64,000 nt of DNA, taken from NCBI RefSeq assembly GCF_030758295.1, contig NZ_CP132335.1:2952412-3016411 (forward strand), written 5' to 3'. The notes under the pieces were generated by a model. It did no database searches, was not told the origin of the DNA, and saw only the letters and a list, made by a program, of their open reading frames with translations. This document shows positions 1 to 46,113 of this stretch, piece by piece. The DNA comes from Pararhizobium sp. IMCC21322 (GTDB taxonomy: Bacteria > Pseudomonadota > Alphaproteobacteria > Rhizobiales > GCA-2746425). A program made the translations under genes and the position numbers. The first letter of the stretch is position 1. Each line of letters begins with the position of its first letter.

Positions 1-35
1 AGCAGAAGAACAGGTTTCAAACTGCGAGTCGCTTC

Positions 36-3000
36 ATGGCAGATCCGGGCTTTATCCACCTTCGTGTACATTCGGCCTATTCGCTGCTTGAGGGCGCATT
101 GCAAATTGGAAAGTTGCTGGAGCTTACCAAAGCTGATGCTATGCCGGCTGTTGCTATAACGGACACCGGCAATCTGTTCGGCGCGCTAGAGTTTTCCGAC
201 AAAGCCCAATCCAAGGGCATCCAGCCAATCATCGGCTGTCAGATGGCAATCGATTTTGCGGACATTGAAATTGATCCGCGATCAAGAGATGGTCGGAACC
301 GGCCGGATGTTGCCTATGGCAATGTCGTGTTGCTTGCAATGAACGAAACCGGTTTCCTCAACCTTTCAAAGCTTGTCAGCCGCAGCTTTCTGGAAACGGA
401 TGCGTCGACCCGTTCCCACACCTCACTTGAACTTCTGACTGAATTGAATGACGGACTGATTTGCCTGTCCGGTGGGCTGGAAGGGGCAATTGATCAATTG
501 ATCGCGGATCGGGACGACGTCCGCGCCGCATCAAGATTGAACACATTAGCCAAAATGTTCGGTGACCGATTCTATATTGAAATACAGCGTCATGAACATC
601 CTGCTGAAAGGTACACTGAGCGTTTTCTGGTGAACTACGCCTATGAGCATGACATTGCACTGGTTGCCACCAATGAGGTCTTCTTTCCTGATCAGAGCGA
701 CTTTGAAGCTCATGATGCGCTGATTTCCATCGCGCAGGGGCGCATGGTTGCAGAAGATGATCGACGGAAGCTGACAGCACACCATTACTTCAAGAGCCGC
801 GCGGAAATGCGGGATCTGTTTGCAGACATTCCCGAGGCTTTGGAAAACACGGTCGAGATTGCCCAAAGATGTCAATTTCGTCCGGACAAGCATGATCCGA
901 TCCTGCCGAATTTCACAGGTGAGGGGAGCGAACCAACAGCTGAGAGCGAAGACACGGCGCAACTGCTTGAGCGGGAAGCAGCGGAGTTGCGGCAGCAGGC
1001 TCTGGATGGACTGGAGCAACGGCTTGGCCAGTTGGGGCTGGCACCGGGCGTTGATCGGGAAACCTACGATAAGCGTCTGGCCTTCGAGTTGGATGTGATC
1101 GTTGGTATGAAGTATCCCGGCTATTTTCTCATCGTTGCCGACTTCATCAAATGGGCCAAGTTGAATGATGTGCCAGTTGGCCCAGGCCGTGGCTCTGGTG
1201 CCGGGTCTTTGGTGGCCTGGTCACTGACCATTACGGACATTGATCCGCTTCGCTTTTCCCTTCTGTTCGAACGGTTTCTGAACCCCGATCGCGTATCCAT
1301 GCCCGATTTCGATATCGATTTCTGTCAGGAGAAGCGCGACAAGGTTATCCGCTATGTCCAGCGCCGCTACGGTGCGGCGCAGGTGGCTCAAATCATCACA
1401 TTTGGAACTCTGCAGGCCAGAGCCGTTCTGCGGGACGTGGGCCGTGTTCTGCAAATGCCATATGGGCAGGTGGATCGTCTCTGCAAAATGGTGCCCTCGA
1501 CACCAGCCAATCCTATGACGCTGCAAGAGGCGATTGATACTGAGCCTCGCCTCAAGGAAGCCGGTGAAGAGGAGGAGGTGGTCGCACGTCTGTTTTCCAT
1601 GGCGACGCGCCTGGAAGGGCTCTACCGCCACGCTTCAACACATGCTGCTGGCATTGTCATTGGTGACCGTCCGCTGGAACAGCTGGTGCCCCTGTATCGC
1701 GATCCGCGATCTGACATGCCGGTTACTCAATACAATATGAAGTGGGTGGAGCAGGCGGGCCTGGTCAAATTCGATTTTCTGGGGCTCAAAACGCTGACGA
1801 TCCTGGAGCGCGCCATCGGTCTTATCGCTCGACGTGGAATTGATGTTGATCTGAGCACTGTTCCATTGGAAGACAAAAAAACATACGAGATGCTGGCACG
1901 CGGCGAAACGGCTGGCGTCTTTCAATTGGAAAGTCAGGGCATGCGCCGTGCTTTGGCGGGCATGAAGCCGGATAGATTTGAAGACATCATTGCGCTTGTG
2001 GCTCTCTACCGTCCGGGCCCCATGGACAACATTCCAACCTATAACCGGCGCAAACACGGGCTGGAAGAACCCGACTACATGCATCCATGCCTGGAGGAAA
2101 TCCTGAAAGAAACCCATGGGGTTATCATCTATCAGGAACAGGTAATGCAGATTGCTCAGGAATTGTCTGGCTATTCCCTGGGCGAAGCGGATTTGCTGCG
2201 CCGTGCCATGGGTAAGAAAATCAAATCCGAGATGGATGTCCAGCGCGAGCGTTTCGTGGATGGCGCCGTTGAGCGCAAGATTGCGAAAGCCCAGGCCAAT
2301 ACAATTTTCGACCTGGTAGCCCGCTTTGCAGATTATGGATTCAACAAATCCCACGCTGCAGCCTATGCACTGGTCGCCTATCACACGGCCTATTTGAAAG
2401 CGAATTATCCAGTTGAGTTTCTGGCCGCTACCATGACACTCGATATGGGCAATACGGACAAATTGTCTGACTTTCGGCAGGAAGCCGTTCGTATGGGAGT
2501 TAATGTGCTGCCGCCGAGCGTCGCCAAATCCTGCTACGAGTTTGAAGTTGAGGATGGTCAGATTGTCTATGCTTTGGGGGCACTGAAAGGTGTTGGTCAC
2601 AATGTCATCGACGAGATTGTAAAGACCCGCAGTGAAAATCCGTTTGACGATCTGTCGGATTTCGCAGAGCGGGTTGATGCCAAAGTGCTCAACAAAAGGA
2701 CGCTGGATGCGCTGGTCTGCTCAGGCGCTTTTGACGTCTTTGCTGATAATCGTGCTCAATTGGACGCCGGGCTGGACCGCGTCATGGCACACGCACAACG
2801 CATTAGTGAAAACGCGCGTAGTGGGCAGGATGAACTGTTTGGCGGTGCGGGAATCCAGAAAGAAAAGATCATTCTGCCGGACGCACAACCCTGGAAGACA
2901 TCCGTCCGTTTGTCCAAAGAGCACAAGGCCATTGGATTATATCTGACGGCCCATCCATTGGACGAATACAAGACGGTGCTGGAGAAATTGGAAATTCCGC

Positions 3001-44711: not shown

Positions 44712-45404
44712 ATGATGCCAATCAAACACATATTCTCGATGATGTTGATCTGCTTCACGCAATTTGCATCAGCCTCAGAGGGGGTTGAGATTGCAGAGGG
44801 TATATTTGTCAGCGTCAAGACGTACGATGTACCTGAAAATGAAGCACCATTCTTCAATTTTGCAGAAAAAACACCAGAAAGTTCTGCGGCTGATAAATTG
44901 TTCTTAAAAAACTTTACGACAAGTGACGAGATTCAATCTGGCTTCGACGGCGCTATAAAAAGAGGGTGGAACTATTTCTTCGAGGGAGACTATTCCACGT
45001 CAGCCAGACGATTTAACCAAGCTCACCTATTAAAGCCCGGCCATGCAGCCGTTCTGCATGGCTTTGGTGTGCTCGCGATTGTTCGGTTTAAGGACCCGGA
45101 CTACGGGGAAGAACTGCTGTCGCTTGCAATTCAACAGCCGGATACGCCGGATATGGCCTATTTCGACATGGGCCTACTGCTGATGAATAATTCCCGTCCG
45201 GCCGATGCGATGCCTTTCTTTAGAACCGCAACTGAAAAAATCCCGGACTACCCTGCGGCCTGGTTTAATCTATCAGTTTCTTTGATGGAAAGCTCCGGTG
45301 ACCGAGATGCCGCTTGTGAAGTCCTTAGACAAGCTCAGGTTTGGATCAAGGATAATACTTCCAAGCGATCCGCAGCTGACCTAAATCGTGCGATAGGCTG
45401 TTAA
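44712..45404 (+). CDS. Exported TPR-repeat protein
   Basis: 230-aa protein with a signal peptide (ICFTQFASA, cut near residue 21) and helical tetratricopeptide-type repeats: about residues 85-118 (GWNYFFEGDYSTSARRFNQA), about 119-152, and about 154-187 (AYFDMGLLLMNNSRPADAMP), then 188-220. Probably periplasmic; TPR domains bind partners, but the partner is unknown. GGAG precedes the ATG ATG start. It sits alone between the tRNA-Lys genes, in sequence somewhat AT-richer than its surroundings. Confidence 0.8.
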   Translation: MMPIKHIFSMMLICFTQFASASEGVEIAEGIFVSVKTYDVPENEAPFFNFAEKTPESSAADKLFLKNFTTSDEIQSGFDGAIKRGWNYFFEGDYSTSARRFNQAHLLKPGHAAVLHGFGVLAIVRFKDPDYGEELLSLAIQQPDTPDMAYFDMGLLLMNNSRPADAMPFFRTATEKIPDYPAAWFNLSVSLMESSGDRDAACEVLRQAQVWIKDNTSKRSAADLNRAIGC

Positions 45405-45624
45405 ACATCACTGTGAACATGTGCCCTTGCAACTGCAAGAATTACGCCTCTCAGGTCACGTTGCAAAACCCTCCTTTATCAAAACAATCACATTGGGCGA
45501 AAACGCTTTTACCAATCTATTGGCGCAAGCTTGAGAATTGGATCACTGCTGATTGAATCGGAGACGCACCAGATCGTTTTTCCTATGTGTCAGCTGGTGT
45601 TAAATAATGTCATACGTTCAATTT

Positions 45625-45666
45625 TTGGTTGCTGGCAGAATACAAAAATATGTTCTTTGTTTGTTC
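45625..45666 (+). promoter_or_regulatory. Promoter with LexA-type box GTTC-N7-GTTC
   Basis: TTGGTT (45625-45630), 18-nt spacer, TATGTT (45649-45654) make a plausible promoter. GTTC (45652-45655), 7 nt (TTTGTTT) and GTTC (45663-45666) overlap the -10 and likely start, matching the alphaproteobacterial LexA site GTTCN7GTTC. The zinc-ribbon gene ATG follows at 45669, so the mRNA would be leaderless or nearly so. Confidence 0.5.
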
Positions 45667-45668
45667 TC

Positions 45669-45908
45669 ATGGCATCAAAGAGAACATTTGCACACATCAA
45701 AACCATTCAGGACGTAATTGATTTGCGGCTGTGGTTGCGCGCCAGTTGCATCAATTGCGGTCGATCAACTGAAGTTCCGCATGGCATTTTGCCTGATTTG
45801 GTATCAGGTCATCTGTCCCTGTCGGCGGCCGCATCCAAATTCAAATGCGGTGGGTGCGGTGAAACGCAGGCAAAGCTGTCCGCTACTGACCCGATGGACA
45901 ATTGGTAA
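45669..45908 (+). CDS. Small zinc-ribbon protein, putative SOS gene
   Basis: 79-aa protein with two CxxC pairs, ASCINCGRS (about residues 31-39) and FKCGGCGET (about 59-67), the spacing of a small zinc ribbon; between them lies a helical segment (GILPDLVSGHLSLSAAAS). I do not know its function. The ATG at 45669 is two bases after the second half of a LexA-type box and has no Shine-Dalgarno; an upstream in-frame start at 45531 would make the protein 125 aa but would include the promoter. It may bind nucleic acid or protein. Confidence 0.6.
   Translation: MASKRTFAHIKTIQDVIDLRLWLRASCINCGRSTEVPHGILPDLVSGHLSLSAAASKFKCGGCGETQAKLSATDPMDNW

Positions 45909-46037: not shown

Positions 46038-46113
<76 letters not shown>

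Follow-up and report, generated by a model that had tools for sequence, protein, structure and literature searches.

Beyond E. coli, many small genes of SOS regulons are still without a name. SidA of Caulobacter is a small, SOS-induced, LexA-controlled and lineage-restricted protein that acts as a membrane division inhibitor. For the alphaproteobacterial LexA regulon of the Caulobacter type, excerpts of three papers give the operator GTTCN7GTTC (PMC12700426, PMC9578287, PMC3323433). The window analysed here (64,000 nucleotides of Pararhizobium sp. IMCC21322, G000:C1:2952412-3016411, G000 being the genome of the window) carries an exact copy of this operator close to the start of a 79-residue protein gene (Table 1). 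Comparison with relatives makes it very probable that the gene belongs to the SOS regulon as an accessory member under LexA control.

Table 1 Features at and around the 79-residue protein gene (positions in the window).
Feature	Position	Strand	Basis
TPR-like ORF upstream of the 79-aa gene	44712-45404	+	TPR identity by eye
Possible weak promoter TTGGTT-N17-TATGTT, overlapping the box	45626-45654	+	By eye, hypothetical
Predicted LexA (SOS) box GTTCTTTGTTTGTTC	45652-45666	+	Exact GTTC-N7-GTTC; inner bases; recurrence before relatives
Gene of the 79-aa double-CxxC protein (zinc-ribbon type)	45669-45908	+	ORF, translation, dN/dS, Cys alignment
tRNA-Lys (anticodon CTT) downstream of the 79-aa gene	46038-46113		

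The box and the gene behind it

The gene encodes 79 amino acids plus a stop (MASKRTF...CINC...KCGGC...DNW), with two CxxC pairs 29 residues apart (CxxC-x29-CxxC). The frame looks coding and under purifying selection because dN/dS is about 0.28 between the window gene and a 90% orthologue, 0.32 between this orthologue and a 61% paralogue, and 0.52 between the window gene and the paralogue. A sequence-only reading had described GTTC-N7-GTTC just before the ATG of a double-CxxC protein of this length and a start without Shine-Dalgarno sequence. Both descriptions agree with what we see: only TC separates the end of the box from the ATG, and no Shine-Dalgarno-like purine run is visible upstream of it.

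By number alone, the bare motif is not above chance. Three copies were found in the window versus 2.08 expected (36 of 100 shuffles reach three), and 164 in the whole genome versus 152 for a reversed control. These counts, as well as the lack of a consensus promoter, are what one would expect if the motif were accidental and the 79-aa gene free of LexA control. The inner bases are more specific. Genome-wide, the count is 48 versus 26 when the seventh inner base is T, and the inner bases of GTTCTTTGTTTGTTC resemble those of boxes beside the lexA, recA, uvrA and uvrD-like genes of the same genome. We trained a scoring matrix on six boxes that adjoin SOS genes in the same genome. Among the 100 boxes listed of the 164, it placed that of the 79-aa gene 7th; four of the six ranked ahead were training boxes. 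The other two boxes of the window (1269, 56707) have negative matrix scores (-10.8 and -2.6, respectively).

The genome is predicted to encode LexA (TIGR00498) and RecA (TIGR02012) under this same operator. Both, like UvrA (TIGR00630), match above cut-off and lie beside the same kind of box. rSAM_PA0069 and rSAM_link_UDG, above the NCBIfam cut-off, also adjoin such boxes, and so does a UvrD/PcrA-like helicase whose gene was read in part and whose match is below cut-off. The lexA and recA boxes are located about 90-155 nt before the likely start codons. The gap of 2 nt between box and ATG recurs at rSAM_link_UDG and at an unnamed 135-aa gene on the minus strand (MMIQDSTPRFVSLKSGG...), which starts 2 nt after GTTCTATTTTTGTTC (L068, G000:C1:4472717-4472731). 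At E 0.1, neither NCBIfam nor Pfam gave a match for the 135-aa protein.

Several other boxes were recorded in G000. At the left window edge (window 3-200) opens an ORF that looks DnaE-like by eye, and some 280 nt upstream of the probable ATG, just beyond the window edge, lies a LexA-type box (L058, G000:C1:2952153-2952167). Caulobacter dnaE is named as SOS-regulated in an excerpt of PMC3323433. A LexA-type box also lies 31 nt upstream of the ATG of a second small double-CxxC protein (110 aa, CNLC...CSKC; L027, G000:C1:1115236-1115611). In its 95% orthologue in G004, both GTTC halves are kept and the inner bases are changed. Among the hits that the first family's profile gave in G000, this protein is absent. 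Finally, a stretch at G000:C1:3964600-3984000 (L067) contains five copies of a related ORF, each with GTTCATTGTTTGTTC in the same position beside the coding sequence. These five copies (G000:3966611-3982273) look like parts of the repeated gene, and we rejected them as SOS operators; they are probably not LexA sites.

Close relatives of the window gene allowed us to see whether box and gene stay together. Before the 90% orthologue (L034), the box is identical to GTTCTTTGTTTGTTC, which gives little information because its flanks are conserved too, the upstream region being conserved throughout. Before the 61% paralogue (L033), the box reads GTTCCTATTATGTTC and ends 2 nt before the ATG, with inner bases changed and the intergenic DNA around it diverged. 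A 28% relative from another family, found with a three-sequence profile that matched 3 of 150 genomes of the order, has GTTCGCGATGTGTTC 3 nt before its ATG. Overall, the box is found at 9/9 of the best subfamily matches (E <= 1.4e-10; the window gene and both close copies included). Absence of the box before orthologues had been named in the sequence-only reading as the observation that would speak against SOS regulation; the box precedes the orthologue, the paralogue and the 28% relative alike. Its fixed distance in the 61% and 28% relatives argues against an accidental motif, and so does the sharp peak at N7 described below for the superfamily and for fresh loci. On conservation and spacing controls, we rejected a chance motif, which we hold to be very improbable. 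LexA control of the 79-aa gene thus stays the preferred reading.

A superfamily of small four-cysteine proteins

Profile searches in 385 genomes of the class gave matches in 39 genomes, and in 76 with a broader profile. We analysed 90 of the 91 broader-profile matches, leaving out G272 (28 residues, two stops). The box was sought on either strand, from 300 nt upstream of the match start to 30 nt past it. GTTC-N7-GTTC was found upstream of 39/90 loci, in 36 genomes and 24 family codes. In the controls, nine other spacings (3-6 and 8-12) gave 0-4/90 loci and the reversed motif at N7 gave 1/90, while on somewhat fewer bases three boxes were found 300-600 nt upstream, none in the gene body and two downstream. 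The inner bases are T-rich, with T at position 11 in 37/42 boxes. Some of the 39 boxes may be due to chance, for instance at L177, where two boxes with atypical inner bases are located 154 and 202 nt before the match.

The exact box is missing at 51/90 loci, one of which (L181) has just 27 nt of upstream sequence. One-mismatch boxes among these 51 are barely above control (9 versus 5), and there are branches consistently without a box. SOS control is therefore not universal in the superfamily.

Since the broader profile was partly built from known box-bearing members, fresh loci were tested (three sets). The box was found at 4/25 loci of a phylum sample (mostly weak matches; 25 of 30 loci, five having been counted before, and 15 further matches had no locus). 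It was present at 21/23 loci of an order rich in the commonest branch (23 of 25 matches, two counted before); these are close relatives of each other and therefore do not represent 21 independent events. In the order of the window genome, 8/24 loci carried the box (24 of 30 loci, only matches with a locus; the window gene, its orthologue, G108, G869, G744 and G044 were counted elsewhere). Controls on the fresh sets were mostly 0 or 1, the exceptions being spacing 9 (6/23) and the reversed motif at spacing 8 (3/25). Fresh loci of the multi-copy family codes f24 and f36 had the box in 2/16 cases. The match in G1023 (L265) is without box because it is a fragment that lacks the 5' part.

The distribution of the box is branch-wise. 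In a quick tree with 117 rows, of which 50 have the box (few resolved forks; rows below 48 residues and the L078 copy left out), the box needs 21 changes versus about 38 in shuffles, and 0/500 shuffles were as low. As judged from this tree, the box follows branches, several of which are without it. The commonest branch, sampled in 36 genomes that belong to one order and one family code, keeps both the box and its position in 19/19 new full-length copies. Comparison of the profile of this branch with that of the window subfamily (three sequences) gave 94.5% probability and an E of 7e-8. At five of 30 loci (L112, L119, L120, L122, L125), the commonest branch follows a similar ORF of about 110 aa (...GEWRDYAIDH...), which may be DUF2794.

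In a phylum sample of 398 genomes, whose number of non-class genomes is not given, 29 had a match and 28 of these belong to the class. The sole match from outside is weak (E 3e-4) and comes from a genome that is 57% complete. Overall, these tiny proteins of zinc-binding type apparently form a large, undescribed superfamily. Membership of the 79-aa protein in it, with predicted LexA control recurring across the class, is the new point of this work; the SOS reading is well supported by comparison.

The distance between box and start codon varies within the superfamily, which bears on how translation begins. Because the box of the window gene ends 2 nt before the ATG, a transcript starting just inside or after the box would have almost no leader. 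Alternatively, the box may be a true LexA site and translation not leaderless, with transcription starting further upstream or with the real start codon elsewhere. The sequence-only reading had seen the box overlapping a plausible promoter. Such a promoter would be weak: the candidate hexamers match 7/12 consensus bases by eye, and the promoter scan before the 79-aa gene reported none. In addition, the reading frame is open upstream as far as a TTG at 45531, and in many box-bearing relatives the box is positioned 20-90 nt before the nearest in-frame ATG. Against a start elsewhere, the ATG at 45669 is common to the orthologue and the paralogue, whereas the sequence before the box differs in the paralogue. 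An in-frame ATG is found within 6 nt of the box at 12/39 box-bearing loci, that is, at 11 of the 38 besides the window gene, bearing in mind that the nearest ATG may not be the true start. A leadered or displaced start is thus possible but rather doubtful, and we retain a leaderless or near-leaderless start at 45669 as the working model.

Plasmid copies and mobile elements

Relatives of the gene are also carried by plasmids. Five Roseibium plasmid records contain 29-33% relatives, and the best place of each has GAAC-N7-GAAC upstream, which is how the operator reads on the opposite strand. With another member as query, a Bosea plasmid record was found that also has the box at its best place. 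This amounts to 6/6 records when best places are counted; a second place in the H3 record and two further Bosea places are outside the count. Some of these relatives are near IS elements or an integrase, and in one Roseibium copy (L078) a stop comes early. On the plasmids of L075, L077, L078 and L079 (near 2050-2505), four of the five from Roseibium, the box separates the zinc-ribbon gene from a divergent thermonuclease-family gene at a distance of about 80 nt. The box sits in the gap and could therefore serve either gene. The two genes are possibly a shared SOS-controlled pair.

Four serine-recombinase-like loci of G000 (L025, L035, L065, L069) have a LexA-type box before a small gene or the recombinase. 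L035 and L065 are almost identical. The L069 recombinase, the only one of the four scanned, gave matches below cut-off. The arrangement suggests that these loci are mobile elements that would be released by DNA damage. As for the paralogue, the gene is followed at L033:990-1040 by a sequence that, by eye, resembles a tRNA-Phe 3' half, perhaps an integration scar; ARAGORN found no tRNA at this place. A tandem array of TPR-like repeats precedes the paralogue.

SOS control could be real with the protein working not in host DNA repair but for a mobile element or in an addiction-like role, such as that of a small inhibitor released on damage. The gene is patchy: it occurs in 2/5 genomes of the genus sample, one of which also holds the 61% paralogue (a third, G001, has a weak superfamily match), and in 3/150 genomes of the order with the narrow profile. 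The six plasmids with their IS elements or integrase, the integration-site-like sequence beside the paralogue and the boxes of the serine-recombinase-like genes agree with such a role. Conversely, no relative was found in a phage collection (two queries) or in IMG/VR (three superfamily queries, the L027 family being put to a separate IMG/VR scan), and a phage origin of the 79-aa gene was rejected on these searches. The commonest branch keeps box and position in all new full-length copies of the one order sampled, and at five of 30 loci it has the same kind of neighbour, as would be expected of a chromosomal gene. We consider service to a mobile element unlikely, and a role of the protein in the host's own damage response is the reading followed below.

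Protein, proposed mechanism and known systems

In an alignment of 19 relatives, no column other than those of the four cysteines is invariant. Two CxxC pairs are hence kept across the relatives, as in a putative zinc ribbon. No known family could be assigned. The window protein and eight relatives had no Pfam or NCBIfam match above cut-off, and the best E of the window protein in PHROGs was 0.15, without a clear match; a known zinc-ribbon family from these collections was rejected as its home. The two nearest descriptions, PF23477 (zf_Tbcl_2) and TIGR04272, have in common with it two CxxC knuckles in a protein below 100 aa. However, the scores are 17 bits versus a cut-off of 27 for PF23477 and 16.8 bits versus a cut-off of 36 for TIGR04272, and the CxxC spacing is 29 residues in the window protein versus 17 in the TIGR04272 description.

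The AlphaFold model, made from two sequences (the window protein and its orthologue), is weak, with a mean pLDDT of 66.3. A Foldseek search of the PDB with this model gave no significant match (best E 0.15). The non-significant neighbours include ribosomal proteins, HypA, an archaeal translation factor (Trf) and the MCM N-terminal domain, all of which we take to contain zinc, together with unrelated proteins. Because the model is weak and the fold match not significant, the molecular function is a guess: tentatively, the protein would be a zinc ribbon with nucleic acid, or an enzyme acting on nucleic acid, as its binding partner.

The course of events that we propose, in which LexA binding, induction, the leaderless start, zinc and the target are all inferred, is as follows. 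In undamaged cells, LexA bound to its box would cover the presumed promoter or transcription start and keep the gene silent. RecA filaments would trigger self-cleavage of LexA and thereby release the gene. The mRNA would start at the ATG or a few bases before it and be read in a leaderless or near-leaderless manner. The outcome would be a quick pulse of the 79-aa four-cysteine zinc ribbon, which may bind nucleic acid or dock on a polymerase, helicase, topoisomerase or ribosome and adjust its target during repair.

The earlier proposal of an SOS-regulated gene gains support from the box before relatives, the N7 peak and the SOS-gene boxes of the same genome. Beyond this locus, many members sit behind the SOS switch, and cells therefore probably make them when DNA is harmed. 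Recurrence of the superfamily behind the LexA operator in 36 genomes and 24 family codes of the class sample makes a shared, testable role in the DNA-damage response likely. We lean, with some reserve, towards the view that these small four-cysteine proteins form an undescribed superfamily spanning the class, and that many of its branches are SOS effectors expressed from a LexA-blocked promoter often running straight into the start codon. Such a damage-response factor would be without known counterpart in the SOS systems of E. coli or Bacillus. The commonest branch, with box and position kept in every full-length copy seen in one order, could be deleted and assayed in laboratory strains, and the box-on-ATG layout would make leaderless, damage-induced translation simple to study.

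Compared with the Caulobacter-type LexA regulon, the genome has the same operator beside lexA, recA, uvrA and a gene for a UvrD-like helicase. The difference lies in the predicted zinc-ribbon member, since no zinc-ribbon SOS family was found in the literature surveyed, which comprises excerpts of papers including PMC1839093, PMC6473078, PMC13384398, PMC12700426, PMC9578287 and PMC3323433; Erill 2004 and da Rocha 2008, whose gene lists may include an unnamed member, lie outside this survey. Like SidA, the window protein is small, lineage-restricted and, by prediction, LexA-controlled. SidA is a membrane division inhibitor, whereas the window protein, in which no membrane stretch is seen by eye, is a four-cysteine protein.
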